DNA of 21,788 bases from a virus, in IMG/VR virus record IMGVR_UViG_3300030109_003353, positions 1 to 21,788 of that record, one strand, 5' to 3'. The translations under genes were made by a program, and so were the position numbers. Below, piece after piece: positions 1,610-20,867 of the stretch (position 1 is the first letter of the stretch; each line of letters opens with the position of its first letter). The notes below the pieces were generated by a model. The model had not been told where the DNA came from, did no database searches, and was given only the letters and a program-made list of their open reading frames with translations.

Positions 1610-1850
1610 AATAAACTTAATAACTAAAATACAAAAACAATTAAAAGAAAGTTACCAACGAATAGGTGACTCAATGGTTAGTGGTGGTGTTGACAATATG
1701 GAAAAATACAAGTACATGTTAGGACAGGCCCACGCCTACCAATACATTTCAGGGGAAATATCCAACCTGCTAAACAAAGGAGCAACGAATGGAAAAGACA
1801 GAGACGGCAAAGTCGTCGACATTGGAAAAGACAGAAGTCCCAAAGCATAA
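1599..1850 (+). CDS. Small conserved phage protein, helical, unknown function
   Basis: An 83-residue protein with a helical N-terminal two-thirds: NLITKIQKQLKES, then MVSGGVDNMEKYKYMLGQA and YQYISGEISNLLNK. The middle motif (an M-x-KYKYMLGQ-A pattern) recalls short proteins found near head genes in many podoviruses and marine phages; none has a known role to me. The last 20 residues are Lys/Asp-rich and overlap the start of the GroES gene by 62 bases, so the tail may be less constrained. No membrane segment is seen. It sits between the basic small-gene run and the head assembly genes. Confidence 0.7.
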   Translation: MLDEINLITKIQKQLKESYQRIGDSMVSGGVDNMEKYKYMLGQAHAYQYISGEISNLLNKGATNGKDRDGKVVDIGKDRSPKA

Positions 1851-2271
1851 AAACGCCTTGGCAGAAAAATACGAAAAAGAAGATAAAGAACAACATCAAA
1901 AAGAAGTTGATGGATACGAACGTTTAAAAACGAAAGAAACTTCAAAGTTACCTCAGCCAACTGGCTGGAGACTTTTAGTTTTACCTTTTAAGATGCCAGA
2001 GAAAACTAAAGGTGGTTTGCTTTTAGGAGCGGACACACTTGAAAGACAACAAGTTGCATCTACATGTGGACTCGTCCTTTCGATGGGACCATATTGTTAT
2101 GATAAACAAAAATTTCCTGAAGGGCCTTGGTGCAAAAAAGGAGATTGGGTTATCTTTGCTCGTTATGCGGGTTCAAGATTACCTATAGATGGTGGGGAAG
2201 TAAGATTGCTAAATGATGATGAAGTTTTAGCAACCATCGATAAACCCGAAGATATACTTCATACATTTTAA
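1789..2271 (+). CDS. GroES-like co-chaperonin with charged N-terminal extension
   Basis: A 160-residue protein whose residues 56-151 match the Cpn10/GroES fold: PTGWRLLVLPFKMPEKTKGG, a mobile-loop equivalent around GGLLLGADTLERQQ, then GLVLSMGPYCY, CKKGDWVIFARYAGSR and the closing strand EVRLLNDDEVLATI. In phages such proteins (T4 gp31 is the classic case) replace or assist host GroES so that GroEL can fold the capsid protein; no GroEL is present here, so the host ring would be used. Residues 1-55 are an unusual Lys/Glu-rich, likely disordered or coiled extension, absent from ordinary GroES of about 95 residues. The start is supported by AAAGGAG six bases upstream. It lies directly before the scaffold and capsid genes. 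Confidence 0.9.
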   Translation: MEKTETAKSSTLEKTEVPKHKNALAEKYEKEDKEQHQKEVDGYERLKTKETSKLPQPTGWRLLVLPFKMPEKTKGGLLLGADTLERQQVASTCGLVLSMGPYCYDKQKFPEGPWCKKGDWVIFARYAGSRLPIDGGEVRLLNDDEVLATIDKPEDILHTF

Positions 2272-9701: not shown

Positions 9702-9719
9702 TAGGAGGAAGCTCCTATG
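9701..9719 (+). promoter_or_regulatory. Hairpin masking ribosome binding site and start codon
   Basis: ATAGGAG (9701-9707) pairs perfectly with CTCCTAT (9712-9718) around a GAAG loop. The stem holds the Shine-Dalgarno GGAG and the first two bases of the ATG at 9717. A ribosome ending the upstream gene at 9701 would open it, so coupled translation is the natural reading. The coupling is inferred. Confidence 0.6.
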
Positions 9720-11060
9720 GCGGATAAAACTTATACAGTCACTGTTGCAAGTGGTAACTTGTATGGTGGAGGTACGGGTAATGTATACTATATAGATGGC
9801 ACTCGTAGTTCATCTGGACCAGGTAATATTATTTGGGCTGGAGGATCAACTTTACGTTTTGAACAAAGTGATGCCTCTAATGACAATCATCCTTTAATTT
9901 TTTCTACAAACACAAGCACGTCTGGAATTATTTCTTCAGGGGTAACTTATTATTTAGACTCACCAACAAGTTCTTCAAATTATATAAACACAACTACATT
10001 TAATGCGGCAACCACTAGGTATGTTGAAATAGATGTATCAGCTCCTGATTTTTATTACCTATGTTATGTGCATGGAATAGGAATGGGTGGACTCATGGAT
10101 GTTGCTACAGGTAAAACTTGGAGCGTTGGTACATGGGGCATTAATCAATGGGGTGATCAAACTGATCCTACTATTCAAACTACAGGTCAAGCTCTTTCTG
10201 CAAATCTTGGAACTGCAACTGTTGACACAGAAATTAATTTAGGATGGGGAAGACTTGAATGGGGTAAGCAAGCATGGGGTATAGCAGGCACCCTTATTGC
10301 TACAGGTAATTCTTTATCAGGAAATTTAGGTACTTTAGGAATGCAGGGGGATGTAACTGTAATTCCAACAGGTTTACCACTTACAAATACTTTAAATAGC
10401 GCAACTGCTACGGGTTTAGCAGAAGTTGATTTAACAGGTTTTGCACTTACAAATTCTTTAGGTACAGCAGATGCTGGTCCTGATGCAATGTTAACAGGTA
10501 TTGGTGCTACTATGGGACTTGGTACTGTTGAAGCATTTAACTTAGCAGGTTGGGGTAGACTTGGTTGGGGAGACAATGATTGGGGTGAGCCTGGAAGTTC
10601 TGTGCAAGCAGATGTTTCTGGAATTGCAATGACTGCAGCTTTAGGAACTCCAACAGAAATTACTGGTGATGCAACTATTGTTGCAAATACTTTAAACGTA
10701 GCTCAAATAACTTTAGGTGCTGTTGATCCTGCACCTGATGCAATGATTCAAGGGAATGCAGGTCTTTTATCTTTAGGTCAAATAGGACATCAAGGTGATG
10801 TAGTAACTCTTCCTACAGGTTTTGGAATGTCCTCAAATTTAGGTACAACAACAGTAGATTTAAGAACAATTGTTATTCCAACTGGAGATGCAATATTAGC
10901 AAGGGTTGCTTCCCCGACTGCATTTACTGATGTTACTGCAACTTTTAATGGTTTTGGATTGACTATGAACTTAAATAGTGCTAATGCTCTTATCTGGAAC
11001 GAAGTAAATACCGGTTCTGCTCCAATAGATCCTCCTGGATGGAGGGAAGTCGTTGCATAA
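9717..11060 (+). CDS. Tail appendage protein with N-terminal cupredoxin-like domain and repeats
   Basis: A 447-residue protein in two parts. Residues 5-129 look like a cupredoxin: strands YTVTVASGNLYGGG and TLRFEQSD, NHPLIFS with His58, and FYYLCYVHGIGMGGLMDV with Cys116, His119 and Met123. These correspond to the His/Cys/His/Met copper ligands of plastocyanin (C-x2-H-x3-M). Residues 136-190 and 277-291 hold W-G-x3-W-G motifs. About 11 degenerate repeats of 18-25 residues (TG..L..NLGT pattern) fill residues 153-425. No signal peptide is seen. The position between virion genes and upstream of the tail collar gene points to a tail or fibre component. Copper binding is likely but unproven; a structural role for a cupredoxin fold is the alternative. 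Confidence 0.75.
   Translation: MADKTYTVTVASGNLYGGGTGNVYYIDGTRSSSGPGNIIWAGGSTLRFEQSDASNDNHPLIFSTNTSTSGIISSGVTYYLDSPTSSSNYINTTTFNAATTRYVEIDVSAPDFYYLCYVHGIGMGGLMDVATGKTWSVGTWGINQWGDQTDPTIQTTGQALSANLGTATVDTEINLGWGRLEWGKQAWGIAGTLIATGNSLSGNLGTLGMQGDVTVIPTGLPLTNTLNSATATGLAEVDLTGFALTNSLGTADAGPDAMLTGIGATMGLGTVEAFNLAGWGRLGWGDNDWGEPGSSVQADVSGIAMTAALGTPTEITGDATIVANTLNVAQITLGAVDPAPDAMIQGNAGLLSLGQIGHQGDVVTLPTGFGMSSNLGTTTVDLRTIVIPTGDAILARVASPTAFTDVTATFNGFGLTMNLNSANALIWNEVNTGSAPIDPPGWREVVA
10173..10991 (+). repeat. Degenerate tandem repeats inside the cupredoxin-tail gene
   Basis: About 11 in-frame units of 18-25 codons share a TG-x2-L-x3-LGT pattern, for example TTGQALSANLGT, ATGNSLSGNLGT, LTGFALTNSLGT and PTGFGMSSNLGT. 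Two W-G-rich inserts interrupt them (GWGRLEWGKQAWG, GWGRLGWGDNDWG). The units are similar in protein but diverged in DNA. Confidence 0.7.
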
Positions 11061-11115: not shown

Positions 11116-11817
11116 ATGGCGAATTCAACATCAGCAAGTTTAAAACTTACAGTACAAGCAACCGGTGAAAACTCTGGAACTTGGGGACAAATTACAAACA
11201 CTAACCTTTTAATTTTAGAACAAGCTATTGGTGGTTATGATACTTTTAACGTAACTAACGCAAATAGAACTTTAACATTTACTAATGGTGCAGTATCCAA
11301 TGGTAAAAATGAAGTTATAAAATTAACAGGTACTTTAGCTTCTAACTTAACAGTTAGTATTCCAGACTCTATAGAAAAAGTATACACAGTAATTGATGGC
11401 TGTAATCATGCCAACAATACTTTAACTTTTAAAACAGCATCAGGTACTGGTGTTCTTTTATGTGAAGGTAATTGTTATACTTTATACTCTGATGGAACAA
11501 ATATTGTAAAAGCAAATGAATATAGAAAATGGAGAGCAGTATCTGCAGCTGAAACAGTTCAAGCTGGAGCTCAACTTTTAGTAAATACAAATGGTGGAGG
11601 AGTTACAATAACTCTACCAGCGTCGCCCGTTGCAGGTGATGAGGTTTCATTTGTAGACCAAGGTTATGATTTTAATAGTAACGCATTGACTGTTGGTAGA
11701 AATTCTTCTAATATAGCTAATGCAGCATCTGATCTTGTTGTTAATACACAAGGTGCAGCTTTTTCATTAGTTTTTTCTGGAGATGCTACAACAGGATGGA
11801 CTTACACGGAGAAATAA
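11116..11817 (+). CDS. Tail fibre-like virion protein
   Basis: A 233-residue protein starting ANSTSASLKLTVQATGENSG and TWGQITNTNLLILEQAIGGY, an N-terminal pattern I recall from tail fibre-type proteins of marine phages, where it attaches the fibre to the tail. The middle and C-terminus are beta-rich and Asn/Thr/Gly-rich (VTITLPASPVAGDEVSFVDQ, FSLVFSGDATTGWTYTEK), in line with a trimeric fibre shaft or tip. It has an upstream promoter-like site and an AAGGAA ribosome site. The tail collar gene follows at once. The host receptor is unknown. Confidence 0.75.
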   Translation: MANSTSASLKLTVQATGENSGTWGQITNTNLLILEQAIGGYDTFNVTNANRTLTFTNGAVSNGKNEVIKLTGTLASNLTVSIPDSIEKVYTVIDGCNHANNTLTFKTASGTGVLLCEGNCYTLYSDGTNIVKANEYRKWRAVSAAETVQAGAQLLVNTNGGGVTITLPASPVAGDEVSFVDQGYDFNSNALTVGRNSSNIANAASDLVVNTQGAAFSLVFSGDATTGWTYTEK

Positions 11818-11818
11818 T

Positions 11819-12409
11819 ATGTCAAATTACGAAGCAACAAAATACGATTTTTCTGGAGCAAACCTTACAGGTATCGAAGGAATTCCTACGGCGACTATTG
11901 TACCCTGGTCTTCTGCATCAGTGCCAACAGGTTTTCTAGAATGTAATGGTCAAGCAGTTTCAAGATCAACTTACTCTGCATTATTTGCAATCGTAAGTAC
12001 AACTTATGGATCTGGTGATGGTGCATCCACTTTTAATGTACCTGACCTTCAAGATAACGTTGCAATGGGTAAATCTGGAACTAAAGCTTTAGCTTCGACT
12101 GGTGGGGCCAACACTGTTACAGTTACGCCTGCAGGTAACGTTGGAGGTTCAACAGCTAATGCAACTTTATCAACTTCACAATTAGCCTCACACTCTCATA
12201 GCACTAATATTCCAGCTGGTGGTGATGGTAGTAATCAAAGAGTGTTAACACAGTATGGACAAGGTACTCAAAGCAGAAACGTTGGCTCGAATAATACAGG
12301 ATCAGGTACAGGTCACTCTCACAATATGAGTGCAACTTTTACAGGTACTGCAGCTAACCCATCAGTATTACAACCTTATTTAACAATTATTTATATAATT
12401 AAGACGTAG
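11819..12409 (+). CDS. Phage tail collar domain protein
   Basis: The frame is open to an ATG at 11783, but that start lies inside the preceding gene with no ribosome site. The ATG at 11819 has GGAG seven bases upstream and gives 196 residues. Residues 27-84 carry the tail-collar signature (IVPWSSASVPTGFLECNGQA, YGSGDGASTFNVPDLQDNVA). The C-terminal part has two His-Ser-His motifs (125-127, 166-168), like the HxH metal-binding sites in trimeric fibre tips, and ends QPYLTIIYIIKT, as collar proteins do. It is expected at the distal tail or fibre. The short N-terminal segment may bind the preceding fibre-like protein. Confidence 0.88.
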   Translation: MSNYEATKYDFSGANLTGIEGIPTATIVPWSSASVPTGFLECNGQAVSRSTYSALFAIVSTTYGSGDGASTFNVPDLQDNVAMGKSGTKALASTGGANTVTVTPAGNVGGSTANATLSTSQLASHSHSTNIPAGGDGSNQRVLTQYGQGTQSRNVGSNNTGSGTGHSHNMSATFTGTAANPSVLQPYLTIIYIIKT

Positions 12410-12417
12410 GAGAAATT

Positions 12418-12786
12418 ATGACAACAAATGCACAATGGACAGTAGTAATGGAGGACAAAAAAATCATCAAACAAAGTGGTGATGCTGCTGGAACACCTTA
12501 CGAAATTAATGATAATGATTTTTGGGGATTAGCCAAATGGAACAACATTTGGGCTATTCAATATGGAACAAGCGATCCAAGTGATACTGTAGAATACAGA
12601 GATGGCACTCCTCACTCTACGTGGGAAGATGCTAATTTAGGTGATTTTTCAGATTTTACTTCTAGATGGGATTCAGCTCATTTAGCTCAATTACAATCTA
12701 ATTGGGATAATGATAATGTTTCAGACGAAACTGAAGCTGATAAAATTGCTAGATTAGGTTCAAGACCTACCTCTTACTCTTCATAA
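12418..12786 (+). CDS. Conserved tail-region protein, unknown function
   Basis: A 122-residue acidic protein with conserved-looking blocks: NAQWTVVMEDKKIIKQSGDA, NNIWAIQYGTSDPSD, VEYRDGTPHSTWEDANLGDF and RLGSRPTSYSS at the end. I recall this family just downstream of tail collar genes in marine phages; its role is not known to me. Trp and acidic residues dominate, with no membrane segment. GGAG is six bases before the ATG. Its 3' end overlaps the convergent oxygenase gene by 13 bases and no terminator separates them. Confidence 0.7.
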   Translation: MTTNAQWTVVMEDKKIIKQSGDAAGTPYEINDNDFWGLAKWNNIWAIQYGTSDPSDTVEYRDGTPHSTWEDANLGDFSDFTSRWDSAHLAQLQSNWDNDNVSDETEADKIARLGSRPTSYSS

Positions 12787-13280
12787 TCTTTAATAAACAA
12801 AGTCGAAGTATATCTTTTTAAATTAGGTACATTACTTGCGTGCTGAGAATGCCACCAATTTGATGGAAACAATACAGCTCTATTTTCTCTAAATCCAACA
12901 TGTATATCTAATTCACCATCCGTATAAAAAACAGTTCCATTTGTAACTGCCGTAGGACCAGAAATCATTATTAATATATTTAAACTACCTAAACCACTAT
13001 CTATGTGAGGTTTAAAATGATCTAAGTTTCTTCTATCAATACTTGAATCTTTGGAAATTTTTATATTTTTTAAATTAAATTTTAACTCGGCTTGTTTTAT
13101 AAAAAGTTTTTTTATATTAGGTTCATATTGAAGTTCCCATCTGTCTCCATAATAATTTTCTTTATTTCTTTCTACAGCATTTTCAAAAAATCTAGGGGTA
13201 TAAAATGCTTTAGTTAAAGCAAAGTCTTGAATAAATTCAAAGTTTTTTTTATCAAAAAAATTATTGATAATTTTAATCAT
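12774..13280 (-). CDS. 2-oxoglutarate/Fe(II)-dependent oxygenase-like protein (oxygenase 1, last in operon)
   Basis: A 168-residue protein with a compact double-stranded beta-helix oxygenase core. The iron triad is readable as His92-x-Asp94 (HFKPHIDSG) and distal His144 (FPSNWWHSQH), with Arg156 (LKRYTSTLFI) placed to bind 2-oxoglutarate. The family couples oxidative decarboxylation of 2-oxoglutarate to hydroxylation of a substrate; the substrate here is unknown. The N-terminus MIKIINN matches that of the first gene of this operon, suggesting related members. It starts one base after the previous minus-strand stop and converges on the plus-strand tail gene. Confidence 0.8.
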   Translation of the reverse strand: MIKIINNFFDKKNFEFIQDFALTKAFYTPRFFENAVERNKENYYGDRWELQYEPNIKKLFIKQAELKFNLKNIKISKDSSIDRRNLDHFKPHIDSGLGSLNILIMISGPTAVTNGTVFYTDGELDIHVGFRENRAVLFPSNWWHSQHASNVPNLKRYTSTLFIKDYEE

Positions 13281-13281
13281 T

Positions 13282-13761
13282 TTACTTTTTTGTAGTATTA
13301 AAAGAAATCACTAATCTTTCTTCATTTGAATTAAGTTTATTTACTTGGTGAGGTATGTGTGAAGGAAATAATAATAATTTATTTTTTTTAAATTCATGAC
13401 AATAAGAATCAAACGCTCTATCATAAAACAGAGTAGGACTGTTTCCGTGTATATAAACTATACCCGAATAATTAGAACCTAGGTGTGTATGTATATTATG
13501 AAAATCGTCTTTATTATATAATTGAGCCCAATTATTAAGCAAAAATAATTCATGACTATCTAATATAGCTATAATTTGTTGTTTAAGATTTTTTAAAATT
13601 GGAAAGTTTAAAACATTTAAATAGTGATATGTATTTTTTTGTTCATTAGTTTGAGCATCTTTAACTAAAAATAAAATTTGATTAATTTCATCTACAGATA
13701 TGTCTAAATCATATTCATAGAATGAGTTTTGATATTTAAATGGATCAAAAGAATTAGACAT
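13282..13761 (-). CDS. Putative 2-oxoglutarate/Fe(II) oxygenase, HxH-type (oxygenase 2)
   Basis: The frame extends to an ATG at 13779, but the ATG at 13761 overlaps the previous stop (TAATG) and is preferred, giving 159 residues. The core reads NNWAQLYNKDDFHNIHTH, GSNYSGIVYIHG, LLLFPSHIPHQVNKLNSNE and ERLVISFNT, which fits the small '2OG-FeII_Oxy_5' type. In that group the first motif is His-x-His (His91, His93) instead of His-x-Asp, with distal His138 and Arg149. The family assignment rests on remembered motifs. Activity is unproven because an acidic iron ligand is absent. The substrate is unknown. Confidence 0.75.
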   Translation of the reverse strand: MSNSFDPFKYQNSFYEYDLDISVDEINQILFLVKDAQTNEQKNTYHYLNVLNFPILKNLKQQIIAILDSHELFLLNNWAQLYNKDDFHNIHTHLGSNYSGIVYIHGNSPTLFYDRAFDSYCHEFKKNKLLLFPSHIPHQVNKLNSNEERLVISFNTTKK

Positions 13762-14357
13762 TATCTTAACATCATCCAAGAAGTTAAAATATATTTTTCA
13801 CCAGATAAAGGTGGATTACCTCTATGTAAATATGGAAATGCAGAAGGCCAAATAACTATTCTACCTGTTTTAGGTTTTACTCTTTTTGAAAAATGTAAAA
13901 ATTCTGTTTCCCCTCCTTCTTCTACATCATTTAAATATATAGAAAAAACAAACGCTCTTGGTGCAGTGTGATACCCTTTACCATGTTCTATGTGCCAAAT
14001 ATGATAACCTTCCGTAGGAAGAGTTTTTTGTATTTTTAAATCTGTAAAATGAAAAGGTCCTCCATCGTATGCTTGATCTGCTCCCGTGTTTTTTATATAA
14101 TGATTCCAAGCCAAGTCAAAATTTACCATCATAGTTTTTAAATCTTCCCACCATACATTTATATTATTAGGTGCTGCAAAAAATTGTTGATCTTGTTTTT
14201 GTAGTATAGATGAATTTTCATTACCTATTCTGTTTACTGTTTTATTAAATTTATCTTGTTCTTCATATAATTTAATAGCTTTATCACATTCTTCTTTAGT
14301 GATGTAATTATCATACACGCCAATAAAATTGTTTATTAAAACTGTTTTTTCATTCAT
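13761..14357 (-). CDS. 2-oxoglutarate/Fe(II) oxygenase, prolyl-hydroxylase-like, HxE-type (oxygenase 3)
   Basis: A 198-residue protein with the prolyl-4-hydroxylase-like pattern YHIWHIEHG, FVFSIYLNDVEEGGETEFLH, VKPKTGRIVIWPSAFPYLHR and EKYILTSWMM. Candidate iron ligands are His122-x-Glu124 and His178; Lys188 stands where 2-oxoglutarate would be bound, as Lys does in animal prolyl 4-hydroxylases. Glu in place of Asp is uncommon but occurs. The gene overlaps the preceding one by ATGA and the next by TAATG, so the operon is translationally linked. The target could be protein or glycan; nothing in the sequence decides. Confidence 0.82.
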   Translation of the reverse strand: MNEKTVLINNFIGVYDNYITKEECDKAIKLYEEQDKFNKTVNRIGNENSSILQKQDQQFFAAPNNINVWWEDLKTMMVNFDLAWNHYIKNTGADQAYDGGPFHFTDLKIQKTLPTEGYHIWHIEHGKGYHTAPRAFVFSIYLNDVEEGGETEFLHFSKRVKPKTGRIVIWPSAFPYLHRGNPPLSGEKYILTSWMMLR

Positions 14358-15223
14358 TTATTTTTATTCTTTATATTTATTTTATATTTAAAAGTTAATA
14401 CCATTCTTAAATCATTAAAACTTCGAACAGTATCTCTAGCACAATGTTCTATTAAACCATCAAAAACTACAACTCTACCTGGTTTAGGTATAATACTTTT
14501 TTGAATATCATAATTATTTGTATCATAAAAAACTGTTTCTCCTCCTAAACTTAAGTCCCAGTTGTTATTTAAATAATACATTATAGTTATGCCTCCATCT
14601 GAATCTATATCATAATCTCTATGAGATTCATGCACAGTACCATAAGGATTACCGCTAGCATAAACTCTTTCTAATTCTAATAAATCAAAAAATTTAAGTT
14701 TTTTTAAAATGTTTTCTGTGCTTTTTTTAAATTTTTTTTCAATCTCATTATTAAAAGTTAAATCGTATTTAAATTTTCTCCATCTAGTAGTATCATTACC
14801 GGAACCTAAAAATTTCCAAGGAACTTCATCTCTAAAATAAAAATAAATTTTTGTTGTGTCTTCTTTATCAAAATAATTATCTATTAAATGAATAAAATTT
14901 TGATCTAATTCATTTGCTAAAGATATAATTTTTAAATTTTTATTTTGATATCTATCTTTATTATATAAATAAACCAAAGACTCTGCTTTTTTTCCAATTA
15001 ATTTTTTAATTACTTCTCTATCGGTTTCAGTTTTAAAAGTAAAACTGTCATTACCGTAAATAGAGTGAAATAATCCGGCATAACAAATATCTTCATGGCA
15101 GTTCCATTTTCTTAATTTATTATATACATTTACTAAATGATTAAATAAATTATTATGGTTATGAGGTACTTGATTAGTTTTTTTATTAATAAGGTAATTA
15201 ATAGAATTAATATATTTATTCAT
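14354..15223 (-). CDS. Fusion of an HD-like (DUF6817-like) domain and a 2OG-Fe(II) oxygenase (oxygenase 4)
   Basis: A 289-residue two-domain protein. Residues 20-110 resemble the HD-like DUF6817 family: HNNLFNHLVNVYNKLRKW, EDICYAGLFHSIYGND, and LIGKKAESLVYLYNKDRY. His29, Asp45 and His53 are possible metal ligands. Residues 185-283 are an oxygenase core: HESHRDYD with His201-x-Asp203, GGITIMYYLNNNW, LGGETVFYD, KPGRVVVFDGLIEHCARD with His260, and Arg273 in LRMVLTFKY. The family name is from memory. It starts 12 bases after the previous gene's stop. The fusion suggests a linked two-step reaction or substrate recognition by the HD-like part; both are inference. Confidence 0.8.
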   Translation of the reverse strand: MNKYINSINYLINKKTNQVPHNHNNLFNHLVNVYNKLRKWNCHEDICYAGLFHSIYGNDSFTFKTETDREVIKKLIGKKAESLVYLYNKDRYQNKNLKIISLANELDQNFIHLIDNYFDKEDTTKIYFYFRDEVPWKFLGSGNDTTRWRKFKYDLTFNNEIEKKFKKSTENILKKLKFFDLLELERVYASGNPYGTVHESHRDYDIDSDGGITIMYYLNNNWDLSLGGETVFYDTNNYDIQKSIIPKPGRVVVFDGLIEHCARDTVRSFNDLRMVLTFKYKINIKNKNK

Positions 15224-15235
15224 TTTTTTCTTTAA

Positions 15236-15760
15236 TTATCTCTTAATCACATAACTAACCGATGTTCTCCAATACGGTATTTTTTTTATTTCCTGTGATT
15301 GATGTAATTTAGTAGATTCAAATAATATAAAGTCACCGGGATTATATTTAATTATTTCTCCTTCTATATTTAATTCTCCACCCCAGTTTTCCGCCCATTG
15401 TGGTGTAAAAAATCCTACAATGCTATAAGTATTTTCTAAATTATCAGTATGAAACTCTGTATAATGATTGTCATTTTGAGCGTTTAAATTAATTCTTTGT
15501 ATTCTTCTATTTAATTTAAAATTATGTTGTTCTAATAATTTTTGATTTATTCTATCAAATAAACAATTAAAATATCCTATCCAATATTGATTGTTAACAA
15601 GAATTTCACCATCTTCAATAAAAGAAACTCCCGGAAAAGCACCCCCTATTGAATCTCCATAGGAAGTTCTATTTAAATTCCAAATGTTAGCAGAGGTTAA
15701 TGCTCTATATAAAGAGAAACAATCTTGTGTAGTTAAAACATTATTTATTATCTTTATCAT
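15236..15760 (-). CDS. 2-oxoglutarate/Fe(II)-dependent oxygenase (oxygenase 5, first in operon)
   Basis: A 174-residue protein with a complete oxygenase motif set: HYTEFHTDN (His104-x-Asp106), YSIVGFFTPQWAENWGGELN, YNPGDFILFESTKLHQSQE (His153), and Arg165 in WRTSVSYVIK. The GGEL strand and the PGD turn are typical of the 2OG-FeII_Oxy superfamily. It is the promoter-proximal gene of five on the minus strand, read away from the gp10-like gene across a 43-base divergent gap. The N-terminus MIKIINN is shared with the last gene of the operon. The substrate is unknown. Only a weak GAAAG lies before the ATG. Confidence 0.83.
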   Translation of the reverse strand: MIKIINNVLTTQDCFSLYRALTSANIWNLNRTSYGDSIGGAFPGVSFIEDGEILVNNQYWIGYFNCLFDRINQKLLEQHNFKLNRRIQRINLNAQNDNHYTEFHTDNLENTYSIVGFFTPQWAENWGGELNIEGEIIKYNPGDFILFESTKLHQSQEIKKIPYWRTSVSYVIKR

Positions 15761-15772
15761 TATGATACTTTC

Positions 15773-15801
15773 ATTCTATATAAAACTAATATATAACACA
15801 A
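15773..15801 (-). promoter_or_regulatory. Weak minus-strand promoter for the oxygenase operon
   Basis: On the minus strand, TTGTGT (15801-15796) is followed after 17 bases by TAGAAT (15778-15773), five of six to the -10 consensus. The -35 match is poor. Transcription would begin near 15766, only a few bases before the ATG at 15760. The same 43-base gap holds TATATAAC boxes on the plus strand. Confidence 0.35.
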
Positions 15802-15803
15802 TT

Positions 15804-17720
15804 ATGGCCTTAAAAAAAGTAGATTTTGCACCTGGTTTTAATAAACAAAGCGTACCCTCCGCTCTTCCTGGACAGTGGGTAGATGGTGATTTTGTACGTT
15901 TTAGATATACCGCACCTGAAAAAATAGGTGGCTGGGAACAATTAACAGCTGCATCTAAAACATTACCGGGCGCTGCTAGAGATCAATTAACTTGGACTTC
16001 ATTAGCAGGCGAACGTTATGCTGCTATTGGAACGTCTCAAGGTTTATTTCTATACTATGGTAATGATTTTTTTGATATCACACCATTAGATACAGCTATT
16101 ACAGGATGCACATTAACAACAGTTAATGGCTCAAATGTTTTACAAATTAATAAAGGATCTCATGGATTAGAGGTTGGAAGATATGTAACTTTGTCTGGGG
16201 TAACTGTTACAGGTGCATCAGATTATACAGCAGCAGAATTAGAAAAAGCTTATGAAATTTTAACAGTTGCAACAGCCGATAAATTTACTGTGCAAGCTGT
16301 AAGAAATGAAGGAGGATCAGGCATGACTGCAGTAGGAGCTGCAACTGTTAATCCATACGTTGAAGTGGGACCAACCACTCAAACAACTGGATATGGTTGG
16401 GGCACATCTACATGGGGAGCGTCTACATGGGGCACAGCTAGAGCTACAAGTAATGTAACTTTAGATCCAGGAAATTGGAGTCTAGATAATTTTGGTGAAG
16501 TTTTAGTCGCTACAATATTTAATGGTAAAACATTCACTTGGAATGCTGGAGCATCGGGAGCTCGAGGTATTCGAGCATCACAATCTACATCTGGTTTTGT
16601 AACAACCGCTAATCCTACAGCCAGCAGATTTACATTAGTTTCAGATAGAGACAGACATTTATTTCATTTTGGAACTGAAACAACTATTGGTGACGTCACA
16701 ACACAAGATCCAATGTTTGTAAGATTTTCTAATCAAGAAGATTTAAATACATATGCACCAACAGCTACTAATACTGCGGGTACTTTTAGATTAGATACAG
16801 GTAACCAAATTAGAGCCGCTCTTCAAGGTAAAGATTATGTTTTTGTTTTAACCGATAACGCTGCGTATGTGATTCAATTTGTAGGTCCTCCTTTTACTTT
16901 TAGTGTTAGACAAGTTGGCACAAACTGTGGGTGCCTAGGACAGCATGCAGCTTCTTATGTTAATGGTGCTATATATTGGATGTCTAATGAAGGTGGTTTT
17001 TTTATGTATGATGGTACTGTTAAAGCTCTTCCTTGTTTAGTTGAAGATTTTGTATTTACAACACAAAATGGAAATTTAGGTCTTAATTTTAATTCTTCAG
17101 ATGTTATTTATTCTTCACCTAATTCTTTATACACAGAAATAAATTGGTTTTATCCAAAAGATGGATCAGATCAAATTGACAGGTGTGTAACGTATAATTA
17201 CCAAGAAAATGTTTGGACTACTTCATCTTTAGATAGAACTACTTACGCTGATCAAGGTGTATTTGTCAAACCTTATGCAACGGACTATGAAACAACCACT
17301 ACTCCAGTGTTTCCAGATATTTTAGGAATTACAAATTTATATGGGGCATCCATATATTATGCTCATGAAACAGGAAATGATCAAGTTAATAGCTCCGGCA
17401 GAACTTCAATCAATGCTTTTATTAGATCTGGAGATTTTGATATTGATGATGGAGAATTATTTATGTCAATGAGGAGATTTATGCCAGATTATAAATTTTT
17501 AGTGGGAAACTCTAAAGTAACTTTGTTTATATCAGATTATCCATCCGATGTTCAATCCGGTTCACCTTTAGGTCCCTTTACAATAACAACTACTACTGAT
17601 AAAGTAGATACTAGAGCGAGAGGAAGACTACTATCTTTAAAAATAGAAAATGATGCTGCAGGAGAAACTTGGCGTTATGGTAGTTTTAGAATGGACGCTC
17701 AACCAGACGGAAGGAGATAG
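15804..17720 (+). CDS. P22 gp10-like packaged DNA stabilisation / tail hub protein
   Basis: The frame is open from 15684, but the first 40 codons read across the oxygenase start and the divergent gap, so the ATG at 15804 (MALKKVDFAPGFNKQSVPSA) is preferred, giving 638 residues. The start, the WVDGDFVRFRYTAPEKIGGW block and the later FRLDTGNQIRAALQGKDYVF, FSVRQVGTNCGC and AIYWMSNEGGFFMYDG blocks fit the gp10-like stabilisation family, which sits below gp4 and plugs the neck. P22 gp10 is about 472 residues; an insert near 97-180 and a W-G-rich stretch (197-210) add length. No Shine-Dalgarno is visible. In P22 this gene follows gp4; here it lies 8 kb away. Confidence 0.82.
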   Translation: MALKKVDFAPGFNKQSVPSALPGQWVDGDFVRFRYTAPEKIGGWEQLTAASKTLPGAARDQLTWTSLAGERYAAIGTSQGLFLYYGNDFFDITPLDTAITGCTLTTVNGSNVLQINKGSHGLEVGRYVTLSGVTVTGASDYTAAELEKAYEILTVATADKFTVQAVRNEGGSGMTAVGAATVNPYVEVGPTTQTTGYGWGTSTWGASTWGTARATSNVTLDPGNWSLDNFGEVLVATIFNGKTFTWNAGASGARGIRASQSTSGFVTTANPTASRFTLVSDRDRHLFHFGTETTIGDVTTQDPMFVRFSNQEDLNTYAPTATNTAGTFRLDTGNQIRAALQGKDYVFVLTDNAAYVIQFVGPPFTFSVRQVGTNCGCLGQHAASYVNGAIYWMSNEGGFFMYDGTVKALPCLVEDFVFTTQNGNLGLNFNSSDVIYSSPNSLYTEINWFYPKDGSDQIDRCVTYNYQENVWTTSSLDRTTYADQGVFVKPYATDYETTTTPVFPDILGITNLYGASIYYAHETGNDQVNSSGRTSINAFIRSGDFDIDDGELFMSMRRFMPDYKFLVGNSKVTLFISDYPSDVQSGSPLGPFTITTTTDKVDTRARGRLLSLKIENDAAGETWRYGSFRMDAQPDGRR

Positions 17721-18358: not shown

Positions 18359-18539
18359 TATACATAAAATAGATTGCACAACAGTAACAATTTATAGAAA
18401 CACAAAAACAGGCGAAACGTCTAAAGAGAAAGTAGAGGGTCCTGATATTGTAACCGATGTTACAGTTCACGTCTCACCGAAAGGATTGGATGTTTTCCAG
18501 AAAGTAATGAATCAAAATAATGGAAACAAAAAAACTTAG
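18345..18539 (+). CDS. Small hypothetical protein (64 aa)
   Basis: A 64-residue polar protein, MKTDNIHKIDCTTVTIYRNT followed by KTGETSKEKVEGPDIVTDVT and HVSPKGLDVFQKVMNQ. The first part looks like a beta hairpin with a K-T-G-E turn, the end like a short helix. I do not recognise a named family. It begins inside the preceding gene (14-base overlap) and ends within the start of the next (20-base overlap). The dense packing supports a real gene. It sits at the border between virion genes and the glycosyltransferase cassette. Confidence 0.6.
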   Translation: MKTDNIHKIDCTTVTIYRNTKTGETSKEKVEGPDIVTDVTVHVSPKGLDVFQKVMNQNNGNKKT

Positions 18540-19032
18540 TATCTTATCAATAGATTGTGATTGGATAACAAGTCTTAAACACCAAGAGGAATTGTTGAGT
18601 TTTGCAATACCTATAATTTACAATCACACAGATATAAAAACTGCGTACTCTCACAAGGATATATATCCATTATTTACTCATGGTTATGACGAATATAATT
18701 TAATAAATATAGATCATCATCACGACTTTCATTATGAAAAATGTTTAGATAGTATAACTGAAGGAAATTGGTTATTTCATTTATCAAATGTATTTAAAAA
18801 TAAAATTAATTATACATGGATATGTAATCCTAATTCTACTCATATTAGACTTAATAGTCTTACAAATTTAAAATCATTTACTTTTGACCACAATATTAAC
18901 TATATAACACAAAAAAAATTTGACAAAATATTTATATGTTGTAGCCCAGATTATGCGAGTAACCCTGAAGTTGCTACAACTTATAAAATTATAGAAAGGA
19001 TAACTAATGAAAATAAGAAACCAAAGCCCTAA
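18520..19032 (+). CDS. Arginase/deacetylase-like (UPF0489-like) metal-binding protein
   Basis: A 170-residue protein with two motifs suggesting a metal site: LSIDCDW near residues 9-15 and LINIDHHHDFHYEKC at 61-75, plus EGNWLFHL (81-88) and WICNPNSTH. The SIDCDW...NIDHHHD pattern recalls the UPF0489 family, distantly like arginase/deacetylase folds that use Asp and His to hold metal. The name is from memory and activity is unproven. It overlaps the previous gene by 20 bases and the next by 26, and opens the glycosyltransferase cassette, so it may prepare or process the sugar substrate or acceptor. Confidence 0.55.
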   Translation: METKKLSILSIDCDWITSLKHQEELLSFAIPIIYNHTDIKTAYSHKDIYPLFTHGYDEYNLINIDHHHDFHYEKCLDSITEGNWLFHLSNVFKNKINYTWICNPNSTHIRLNSLTNLKSFTFDHNINYITQKKFDKIFICCSPDYASNPEVATTYKIIERITNENKKPKP

Positions 19033-19954
19033 AGGCGGAACTGAGTTACAACTTGGGTTTTTACATCAATACGTAGATAAAAATCTATTAGATCAAGTAC
19101 AAATTTGTACTAGCGTACCGGGTAAAGTTCCTATTGATCCTAATAAACTTAACGTACTTTGGCAAAAAAATTCTTACGATCAACCTAATTTATATCCGTG
19201 GTTTAAAAATAAAGCTAATCATCACAAATATGATTGGTATGTTTTTAATTCTCATTGGAATTATGAAAAATTTCGAATGATGTTTGGTATCCCTACTGAA
19301 AAATGTGTGGTTATTAAAAACGGAGTTGAGAAAATAAAACAATCTCCACATTATGAAAAAGGTAAACCTATTAGAATAATTCATCAGAACACACCTTGGA
19401 GAGGATTATCTGTTTTACTGGGTGCAATGCAATTAATTAAAAACCCATTAATTACATTAGATGTTTATTCTTCGTGCGAAGTTTATGGCAAAGATTTTAT
19501 GGAAAAAAATGATCACAATTATAAAGCGTTGTATGAACAAGCTGAGTCTTTACCTAATGTAAATTATATTGGTTATAAACCAAACGAATATATTAGAGAA
19601 CATTTACAAGATTATAATATGTATGCTTATCCTAGTATCTTCGAAGAAACTTCTTGTATTTCTTTATTAGAAGCAATGTCTGCTGGTTTATATAGTATAG
19701 TAACTGATTATGGAGCTCTATTTGAGACAGGAGCAGAGTTTCCAATGTATATTCCTTTTGATAGTAATTATAAAGCTTTAGCAGAAAAGTTTGCATACGG
19801 GATTGCTGCCGCTGCAGAAACTTTACATGAGCCACAAATACATAGTCATTTAACCACTCAATCTAATTATACACAAATATACTACTCTTGGCCAAAACAG
19901 GCTTCTGCGTGGACTACATTTTTAAAAGGAGCTCTTAATGCCAAAGCCAAATGA
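19007..19954 (+). CDS. GT4-type (GT-B fold) glycosyltransferase
   Basis: A 315-residue protein with group-1 glycosyltransferase marks: an N-terminal KGGTELQLGF loop, YVFNSHWNYEKFR, KNGVE, and the C-terminal donor-binding region with YPSIFEETSCISLLEAMSAG containing the E-x7-E pair (Glu214 and Glu222). RIIHQNTPWRGLSVLLGAM fits the linker before the nucleotide-sugar domain. This retaining family transfers a sugar from a nucleotide-sugar to an acceptor. The first beta strand before GGTE is very short, so the N-terminus may be reduced. It overlaps genes on both sides. The acceptor is unknown: virion protein, DNA or host surface sugar. Confidence 0.85.
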   Translation: MKIRNQSPKGGTELQLGFLHQYVDKNLLDQVQICTSVPGKVPIDPNKLNVLWQKNSYDQPNLYPWFKNKANHHKYDWYVFNSHWNYEKFRMMFGIPTEKCVVIKNGVEKIKQSPHYEKGKPIRIIHQNTPWRGLSVLLGAMQLIKNPLITLDVYSSCEVYGKDFMEKNDHNYKALYEQAESLPNVNYIGYKPNEYIREHLQDYNMYAYPSIFEETSCISLLEAMSAGLYSIVTDYGALFETGAEFPMYIPFDSNYKALAEKFAYGIAAAAETLHEPQIHSHLTTQSNYTQIYYSWPKQASAWTTFLKGALNAKAK

Positions 19955-20867
19955 ACCAATATGGTTTAACATAGATAAAACCGAAACAGCAAATGATGAT
20001 ACCTATCAAACAATTAAAACTAACAAAGTAGAAAATAAAGTAACGGAAATAAATTTAGGTACTTCACCTCACAAAATTATGTTATGTACTCCTTGTCATA
20101 GTGATGTTAGTATGCATTACTGTCAAGCCGTATTAAAATTTCAACAAGCATGTTGGAAAGAAGGAATACAGTGTAGTTTTACATTACTTAAATCCTCGTT
20201 AGTTACACAAGGTAGAAACTTATGTGTAGCAGAATTTTTAAATCACGAAGATAAATATACTCATTTATTATTTATAGACTCCGACATTGATTTTGATTAC
20301 AAAACTATTTTTAAAATGTTAGATTTTGATAAAGATATTATATCTTGTCCATACCCTATGAAGATATTAGATTGGGATAAAATATGGCGAAGACTTAATA
20401 CTAAAGAAGATGCTATCAATAATGAAAAAGACCTGGCTACAGCAGGATTTACCTTTCCTGTTAAAGTAGAGGACCCTAATTCAATAACCGTGGACAAAGG
20501 ATTAATGGAGCTTACTCATGCTCCTACTGGATGTATGTTAATTAAAAGAAATGTAGTCGAGAAGATGATTAAAGAATATCCTCATTTAGAGATATATCAG
20601 CCTACCAATATTAATGGTAAAGAGGTTAAAAAAGATAATATGTACAATTTATTTGATACATTACATGACCCTGAAACTAAAAGATATTTTGGAGAAGACT
20701 TCGGATTTTGTCAAAGATGGACGGATATAGGCGGTAAGGTATATGCTTACGTAGATGCTCCTATAACTCACGTTGGAGAGTATTGTTATAAGGGTCGATT
20801 TAGAGATGATTTATGGCAAGCAGGAAGACCTGTCAAACCTGTTGACGATAGTAAAAAAATCAAATAA
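19938..20867 (+). CDS. GT-A fold glycosyltransferase (phage type)
   Basis: A 309-residue protein with a DxD-type metal/nucleotide-sugar site in LLFIDSDIDFDYKTIF (Asp114-Ser-Asp116), an upstream LVTQGRNLCVAEFL segment, and LTHAPTGCMLIKRNVVEKM followed by EDFGFCQRWTDIGGKVYAYV and ITHVG. This arrangement is common in marine phage glycosyltransferases. It would use a metal-bound nucleotide sugar. The first 45 residues are polar and possibly a recruitment segment. It starts inside the GT4 gene (17-base overlap), so the two enzymes are probably made together and may act in sequence. The acceptor is unknown. Confidence 0.85.
   Translation: MPKPNEPIWFNIDKTETANDDTYQTIKTNKVENKVTEINLGTSPHKIMLCTPCHSDVSMHYCQAVLKFQQACWKEGIQCSFTLLKSSLVTQGRNLCVAEFLNHEDKYTHLLFIDSDIDFDYKTIFKMLDFDKDIISCPYPMKILDWDKIWRRLNTKEDAINNEKDLATAGFTFPVKVEDPNSITVDKGLMELTHAPTGCMLIKRNVVEKMIKEYPHLEIYQPTNINGKEVKKDNMYNLFDTLHDPETKRYFGEDFGFCQRWTDIGGKVYAYVDAPITHVGEYCYKGRFRDDLWQAGRPVKPVDDSKKIK

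Follow-up and report, generated by a model that had tools for sequence, protein, structure and literature searches.

Introduction

Few unexplained genes of marine phages are as common as those for 2-oxoglutarate (2OG)-Fe(II) oxygenases, which have been read as functions of iron or nitrogen metabolism. HTVC023P-type pelagiphages carry eight non-orthologous 2OG genes with 'ferrochelatase' partners (Wittmers et al., 2022; PMC9599517), and two papers treat the 'ferrochelatase' partner as an iron gene (PMC9599517, PMC11561400). In cyanophage S-SCSM1, 24 2OG oxygenase genes were reported (PMC9602691). Fe(II) oxygenases are also listed for metaviromic islands, in passages that class them as host recognition (PMC3909814). 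Here we compare with these systems a locus of five predicted oxygenase genes in a viral DNA of 21,788 nucleotides (IMG/VR record IMGVR_UViG_3300030109_003353; the whole stretch is hereafter the window). Its features, as called from sequence matches, are:

11783..12409, plus strand: tail-collar/tail-fibre type protein (phrog_9116, tail protein, 2.5e-20; phrog_19618, tail collar, 1.8e-18)
12418..12786, plus strand: left flank (LF), 122 aa, no family; conserved, convergent with gene E and at the same position in relatives
12774..13280, minus strand: gene E, divergent 2OG-Fe(II) oxygenase, 168 aa (phrog_274, oxygenase-type, 2.6e-9)
13282..13761, minus strand: gene D, 2OG-FeII_Oxy_5-type protein, 159 aa (Pfam PF13759, 3.6e-11, above cutoff; phrog_81, 2.1e-23)
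13761..14357, minus strand: gene C, prolyl-4-hydroxylase-like oxygenase, 198 aa (Pfam 2OG-FeII_Oxy_3, 2.4e-11, above gathering cutoff)
14354..15223, minus strand: gene B, fusion of DUF6817 and a prolyl-hydroxylase-like 2OG-Fe(II) oxygenase, 289 aa (Pfam N-terminal DUF6817, 3.6e-23; 2OG-FeII_Oxy_3, 3.5e-9, above gathering cutoff)
15236..15760, minus strand: gene A, 2OG-Fe(II) oxygenase, 174 aa, heading the antisense run (Pfam 2OG-FeII_Oxy_3, 4.8e-7, above gathering cutoff)
15761..15803: divergent intergenic stretch of 43 bases between the gene starts of A and the right flank
15804..17720, plus strand: right flank, virion structural ('stabilization') protein, ATG at 15804 (phrog_3287, 7.6e-82)
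19007..19954, plus strand: GT4-type glycosyltransferase, conserved near the slot (Pfam Glycos_transf_1, 3.9e-14)
19938..20867, plus strand: conserved gene 3' of the glycosyltransferase (phrog_1574, 3.2e-38)

Organization of the antisense block

We assign the window to an HTVC027P-like pelagiphage (HTVC023P/HTVC027P type), of which it is a fragment, because its virion genes are ordered as in HTVC027P, its right flank protein is 78% identical to HTVC027P gp75 and its gene C product is 83% identical. A homologous slot was found on a Pelagibacteraceae single-cell contig. The coordinates agree with an earlier note on this DNA that had described five consecutive minus-strand genes: A to E are tightly packed, with junctions of +12 (A/B), -4 (B/C), -1 (C/D) and +1 (D/E) bases, and the 3' end of E, the last gene, shares 13 bases with LF. 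Gene D starts at an ATG, whereas the ORF lister used a TTG at 13779. The block is also AT-richer than its surroundings, as the note had it, with 24.9% GC against 35.8% across the remaining window and a minimum of 30.0% in any other window stretch of equal length. In relatives, every complete slot (56/56) is likewise more AT-rich than the contig that carries it. The claim that the block sits between two virion genes stands on the right, where phrog_3287 is matched, and in part on the left, where LF comes directly after the tail-collar gene but belongs to no family.

The antisense run would most likely begin its own transcription within the divergent 43 bases. In a promoter/terminator scan, promoter-like matches did not exceed chance, and these include a weak minus-strand match resembling -35/-10 elements (15774-15747). 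Downstream of the glycosyltransferase gene, the product of 19938-20867 looks like a putative GT-A glycosyltransferase from an SDIDFD motif recognized by eye; Pfam and PDB searches with it gave no match. Inspection by eye found no collagen-like repeats, a prolyl-hydroxylase substrate, in the translated sequences of two tail protein candidates. Trp-Gly repeats occur within 9717-11060 and might, speculatively, be a halogenase or hydroxylase target.

Predicted activities of genes A to E

By sequence, all five proteins are members of the 2OG-Fe(II) oxygenase superfamily, the predicted fold having been examined for B alone, and Fe(II)/2OG-dependent oxidation is their predicted activity. The profile searches proposed earlier placed A, B, C and D above Pfam cutoffs; E, weak in Pfam (E=0.004), is included because of its phrog_274 match and conserved ligands. 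The structure prediction likewise proposed was made for gene B, whose AlphaFold2 model (pLDDT 86) matched the PHD2/P4H fold in a Foldseek search of the PDB (E 5e-9). The profile of gene C matched prolyl 4-hydroxylases in the PDB at 1.1e-9. The earlier statement that all five show the motif set is correct for A, B, C and E, in whose family alignments the HxD/E...H iron triad and the 2OG-binding R/K are present and invariant (H104/D106/H153/R165 in A, H201/D203/H260/R273 in B, H122/E124/H178/K188 in C and H92/D94/H147/R156 in E). Gene D departs from it: H88, H91, H93, H138 and R149 are invariant, H91xH93 replaces HxD/E, and the acidic ligand is absent at the usual place. Confident links in an hhalign profile comparison among the gene families were confined to some pairs.

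All five genes are under purifying selection, with dN/dS values of 0.22-0.28 (A), 0.21-0.23 (B), 0.12-0.16 (C), 0.37 (D) and 0.24 (E). Relatives of A were found at 77 loci. They occur inside the slot or on the plus strand beside the glycosyltransferase gene, and about 30 contigs have an A-type oxygenase directly 5' of that gene. Relatives of E were found at 51 loci. Gene B is related to the FlmC family (NF052475) and, by its score of 102.6 bits against a curated cutoff of 240, not a member of it; a literature search for FlmC found no paper. The Tet_JBP oxygenase domain was absent from the Pfam matches of A to E. The PHROG labels 'DNA endonuclease V' and 'minor coat protein' were rejected, since the same proteins give Pfam 2OG matches.

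Variation of the slot among relatives

The survey of related phages covered 56 complete slots bounded by the same two virion genes. Slots hold 1-9 genes, 187/216 of them antisense and 186/216 (about 86%) 2OG oxygenases. The earlier observation of different oxygenases in one antisense run inside the virion block holds for the window, and the slot itself is common to relatives. Its place and its near-constant anchor, gene C (52/56 unbiased slots), are conserved; the content is polymorphic, with 39 distinct ordered gene sets among the 56 slots. The suggestion of a dedicated, multi-step pathway of five enzymes was rejected, because many slots hold other sets or gene C alone (9/56) and the exact set of the window recurs in one contig only, the near-identical L002. 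Phage pairs 3-6% apart in the flanking virion protein differ in gene set in 96% of cases, so that turnover of slot content outpaces divergence of that protein. Sister phages of the L185/L186 type, with more than 99% identity in the flanking protein, also differ in their cassettes. The locus is a polymorphic antisense cassette with a conserved place and rapidly exchanged content.

Cassette content did not covary with the LF protein (partial r -0.015, p 0.6). Covariation with the collar, tail and glycosyltransferase-region proteins was weak and differed between data sets, with uncorrected p values; for 19938-20867, p was 0.002 in one set and weakened to 0.064 in a larger one, both uncorrected.

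The slot genes of relatives that are not 2OG oxygenases include carbamoyltransferases (Nol-like, 1.7e-37), sulfotransferases (Sulfotransfer_2), methyltransferases (TylF-type O-methyltransferase) and tryptophan halogenases (7.7e-93). At least one such transferase or tryptophan halogenase was present in 14/48 dereplicated slots (about 30%), and 34/48 had no recognised transferase or halogenase. Another frequent cassette partner, absent from the window, is the 'ferrochelatase' PHROG 2954. The model of one member (L163:7864-8421; pLDDT 93.6) had 2OG-dependent oxygenases as its listed PDB matches, and H90xD92, H136 and R138 are invariant. This partner thus models as a 2OG-oxygenase fold and not as a chelatase fold, which contradicts its name.

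Possible roles of the cassette

The five genes are best explained as one allele of a polymorphic 'tailoring' cassette of HTVC023P/HTVC027P-type pelagiphages, probably with transcription of its own. We tentatively favour, as a reading that may well be right, a combinatorial chemical decoration whose targets would be tail/adhesin proteins or a glycan that they carry. The oxygenases would hydroxylate side chains of distal tail/adhesin proteins, or a glycan built there by the neighbouring glycosyltransferase, and some alleles would go on to add sulfate, carbamoyl or methyl groups to the hydroxyls so formed. Exchange of sets could alter the chemistry of the host-contact surface, for receptor binding or escape from surface defence, with the tail protein itself unchanged. 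Several observations point this way: the slot is conserved while its content is polymorphic and is replaced more quickly than the flanking protein diverges; relatives' slots hold the transferases, the tryptophan halogenase and a 'ferrochelatase' modelled as a 2OG fold; similar modules adjoin tail or baseplate genes in unrelated isolates, and A-type oxygenases lie beside a glycosyltransferase; a Prochlorococcus homologue of C lies near a surface protein; the genes are under purifying selection; and the island passages use a host-recognition class (PMC3909814). The reading is weakened by the lack of covariation with LF, by the 34/48 slots lacking recognised transferases or halogenases, by a group in HTVC008M that lies away from tail genes and by the setting of the Syn1 and P-SSM2 halogenase loci among other auxiliary genes. 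Clusters may also lie next to tail genes because insertion is tolerated there and not because of what they do. Among candidate targets, virion proteins are favoured and nucleotides least favoured. It is more doubtful that SAR11 phages use the locus as a combinatorial post-translational system, in which an anchor and interchangeable hydroxylases, transferases and halogenases diversify the receptor-binding tip.

During infection the enzymes might instead modify the host cell surface (LPS/O-antigen or another envelope polymer). This could serve, for instance, to keep related phages from superinfecting the cell, and variability would track competing phages. Tailoring of surface polysaccharides is classically the work of sulfo-, carbamoyl- and methyltransferases together with hydroxylases and glycosyltransferases; a conserved GT4 gene is close by, and the cellular C homologue adjoins a CMP-sugar-synthetase-type gene. 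We nevertheless consider this role unlikely, as a virion-block site by distal tail genes, in unrelated phages too, suits virion components better, and no lipid-carrier, flippase or polymerase genes were seen in the window. Modification of DNA or nucleotides against host nucleases, by hydroxylation of bases and then glycosylation, carbamoylation or methylation, would follow the known logic of phage cytosine hypermodification, which couples an oxygenase to carbamoyl or glycosyl transfer. Some HTVC023P-type phages do carry DNA-hypermodification genes (PMC9599517). This explanation is very improbable given that the Pfam matches of A to E lack a Tet/JBP domain, the nearest folds are prolyl hydroxylases, no cytosine-5 methyltransferase was identified in the sampled slots (the window itself covers part of its genome), and the genes lie antisense within a virion block.

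An auxiliary metabolic role, in which the oxygenases use host 2-oxoglutarate and iron and shift nitrogen or energy metabolism, has precedents in the 2OG/NtcA proposal for cyanophages (PMC3037559), the pairing of 2OG and ferrochelatase genes in pelagiphages (PMC9599517, PMC11561400) and the rise in iron uptake during HTVC027P infection (PMC12753301). It appears quite unlikely here: the haem/iron argument would fall if the 'ferrochelatase' is the oxygenase that it models as, and bulk 2OG use needs neither many divergent, fast-exchanged enzymes nor sulfo- and carbamoyltransferases. Least probable of all is that the run has no common function and consists of selfish or decaying morons collected where insertion is tolerated; its very high AT content, its antisense direction and the fast turnover would suit this, but purifying selection acts on every gene (dN/dS 0.12-0.37), gene C persists in 52/56 slots and the content is strongly biased to one enzyme superfamily.

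With the cassette and its oxygenase-like 'ferrochelatase', the metabolic reading gives way to one that can be tested, chemical decoration of the interface between phage and host; HTVC027P and its host HTCC1062 are both in culture. If the locus does diversify the receptor-binding tip in a combinatorial way, it would be the chemical counterpart of tail-fibre sequence variation, and what was reported from seasonal marine viruses as 2OG/'ferrochelatase' enrichment would be enrichment of this locus.

Comparison with known systems

Similar modules adjoin genes for tail fibres, tails or baseplates in the isolates HTVC027P, HTVC023P, 023Pt and HTVC008M and in the cyanophages P-RSM4 and ACG-2014g, and that of P-RSM4 includes a carbamoyltransferase. 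Genes gp72-gp74 of HTVC027P (MN698241) share the slot, the orientation and the anchor C (83% identical) with the window, but number three rather than five, one annotated as 2OG and two as hypothetical. The independent antisense run gp067-gp072 of HTVC008M (NC_020484), in which four genes annotated as 2OG oxygenases and a 'ferrochelatase' make up five members within the virion block, tempers, with the 24 genes of S-SCSM1 (PMC9602691), the earlier view of the window as unusual. It comes immediately behind two genes that succeed that of the baseplate wedge initiator; the product of one of the two is glycine-rich and resembles a fibre tip. Unlike the window, HTVC008M is a myovirus (Kyanoviridae in its record), and its members are distantly related and lack the DUF6817 fusion. 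Its carbamoyltransferase/2OG group sits away from the tail genes, and the halogenase loci of Syn1 and P-SSM2 are surrounded by other auxiliary genes.

In cells, the Prochlorococcus C homologue adjoins a CMP-sugar-synthetase-type gene, a TPR protein and a giant PA14/Calx-beta/lectin surface protein. For chromosomal C homologues in Massilia, shadow ORFs in the GC-rich loci obscured the gene neighbourhood. The closest solved relatives of C (by sequence) and B (by fold) are prolyl 4-hydroxylases/PHD2-type protein hydroxylases, at low identity. The genes of Wittmers et al. (PMC9599517) come from the same phage group, yet were nearby 'although not adjacent' and given no common role, and the ferrochelatase was a separate iron function rather than the oxygenase that we model; a term search of that paper turned up no carbamoyl-, methyl- or sulfotransferases. 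Metaviromic islands resemble the cassette in being variable, near host-recognition genes and endowed with Fe(II)-dependent oxygenases, whereas cassette structure, anchor gene and tailoring transferases are not described in the passages covered (PMC3909814). In this abundant SAR11 phage group, by contrast, the 2OG oxygenases form a fast-changing cassette, with tailoring transferases, at a fixed tail-side place.

The antisense run and its neighborhood

In this virus record of 21,788 bases, five minus-strand open reading frames are packed tightly at 12774-15760, with junctions of +12, -4, -1 and +1 bases as the earlier note had described them. The layout discussed below is as follows:

12418-12786, plus strand: virion gene, left flank
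12774-13280, minus strand: gene E
13282-13761, minus strand: gene D
13761-14357, minus strand: gene C
14354-15223, minus strand: gene B
15236-15760, minus strand: gene A
15804-17720, plus strand: virion gene (phrog_3287), right flank
19007-19954, plus strand: GT4-type glycosyltransferase gene

The run was also said to be richer in AT than its surroundings and to lie inside a virion block. Both statements hold: its GC content is 24.9%, against 35.8% in the rest of the window, and the genes around it encode head, tail and tail-collar proteins, the right-hand neighbor being the phrog_3287 virion protein. The nearest isolate, Pelagibacter phage HTVC027P, has an identical gene order, and its slot, the term that we use for the antisense run, or cassette, between these two virion genes, contains three antisense genes. 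The phage-encoded GroES co-chaperonin of the window (1789-2271; phrog_3188) is annotated in HTVC027P too.

Profile searches assigned A, B and C to the Pfam family 2OG-FeII_Oxy_3 and D to 2OG-FeII_Oxy_5; gene E gave a weak Pfam match (0.004) and a match to phrog_274 (2.6e-9). The earlier note had credited all five proteins with the motif set of 2-oxoglutarate (2OG)/Fe(II) oxygenases. In family alignments, the iron-ligand and 2OG-binding residues are indeed invariant in A, B, C and E, but D carries HxH where HxD/E is expected, and its chemistry may therefore differ from the usual one. Gene B joins a DUF6817 domain (3.6e-23) to an oxygenase domain, and its AlphaFold model (pLDDT 86) matches the PHD2/P4H prolyl hydroxylases. 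In some relatives of gene B (contigs L015-L017 and L063-L065), the oxygenase half is kept next to a truncated or degenerate DUF6817 half; HS or NS stands in place of the HD-type motif. Pairwise dN/dS values range from 0.12 to 0.37 across A-E and show purifying selection on all five genes.

Two virion proteins of the window (9717-11060 and 15804-17720) contain many repeated Trp-Gly motifs, with eight WG in 9717-11060. Speculatively, these Trp-Gly-rich proteins are a possible target of a halogenase or hydroxylase. A 170-aa gene at 18520-19032, preceding the glycosyltransferase gene, carries an IDHHHDF motif that by eye resembles those of arginases/deacetylases; a family search with this gene returned no convincing match. 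Its homologues lie within the slot of two related contigs (L051/L052) and adjoin A-type oxygenases in two others (L032/L034).

Slot content in related phages

We retrieved 80 related contigs by their right-flank protein, the cassette not serving as a criterion, and compared 56 complete slots, this window's included. Slots hold one to nine genes in 39 different ordered sets, and each of the 56 is richer in AT than its own contig. Among their 216 genes, 186 encode 2OG oxygenases and 187 are antisense. The C family is a near-constant anchor (52 of the 56 slots). Turnover is otherwise rapid, as gene sets differ in 96% of phage pairs whose flanking protein is 3-6% divergent. The proposal of a dedicated five-member set did not survive this survey, in which the window's set was found in only one other contig (L002).

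The remaining slot genes include those for Nol-like carbamoyltransferases, Sulfotransfer_2 proteins, tryptophan halogenases, cupin/JmjC proteins and several methyltransferases, a TylF-type O-methyltransferase among them. After dereplication, 14 of 48 slots contained at least one transferase or halogenase. One open reading frame in a related contig (L232:734-2053) fuses the N-terminal part of an A-type oxygenase with a tryptophan halogenase and is apparently a product of recombination within the slot. Five pelagiphage-like contigs (L230, L231, L233, L234 and L236) are binned into the metagenome-assembled genome 'Maricaulis sp. IN14', a record that they likely contaminate.

Proposed reassignment of the 'ferrochelatase' partner

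A family that is a common cassette partner, with 28 members when the genes were first clustered, matches phrog_2954, labeled 'ferrochelatase' (6.5e-42), and has invariant H90xD92, H136 and R138. The model of one member (L163:7864-8421; pLDDT 93.6) retrieved 2OG-dependent oxygenases throughout the PDB matches listed. Judged from this model, the protein appears to adopt a 2OG-Fe(II) oxygenase fold, and the phage 'ferrochelatase' annotation, for PHROG 2954 generally, appears to be wrong. A ferrochelatase partner has been discussed (PMC9599517), and in seasonal marine viruses phrog_2954 is reported to be enriched jointly with 2OG oxygenases (PMC11561400). Here both members of the 2OG/'ferrochelatase' pair seem to belong to a single superfamily, and the apparent mislabel bears on published AMG interpretations. 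PHROG 274 ('DNA endonuclease V') and PHROG 1644 ('minor coat protein') also match 2OG oxygenases in this analysis, and both labels look mistaken.

Proposed function and comparison with known systems

The analysis shows the slot, its polymorphism, the enzyme classes in it, selection on the genes, and recurrence beside tail or baseplate genes. We propose that the cassette oxygenases would hydroxylate distal tail proteins or their glycans, optionally followed by capping with sulfate, carbamoyl or methyl groups, the outcome being a host-contact chemistry that could change quickly. The strongest rival explanation is that the cassette modifies the host surface instead, and the covariation of cassette content with neighboring proteins did not pinpoint the substrate. 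In Prochlorococcus, a C homologue has as neighbors a CMP-sugar-synthetase-type gene and the genes of a TPR protein and of a giant surface protein.

Cyanophages and pelagiphages are known to carry many 2OG genes (PMC3037559, PMC9602691, PMC9599517), and metaviromic islands contain Fe(II) oxygenases (PMC3909814). The open-licence literature searched yielded no description of the antisense anchor-plus-variable cassette with its tailoring transferases or of the DUF6817 fusion, and no precedent for a fold-based reassignment of PHROG 2954. Similar modules are present in other phages. In the myovirus isolate HTVC008M, genes for four 2OG oxygenases and one 'ferrochelatase' form an antisense run with a small gene, directly following a glycine-rich fiber-tip-like gene and another hypothetical gene; apart from this run, the phage encodes an overlapping 2OG/tryptophan-halogenase pair and a carbamoyltransferase with two 2OG genes after it. 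ACG-2014g has a stand-alone DUF6817 protein, encoded in a 2OG cluster close to the tail fiber. Phage P-RSM4 carries four annotated 2OG genes close to its tail-fiber genes, together with a carbamoyltransferase and a 'ferrochelatase'.
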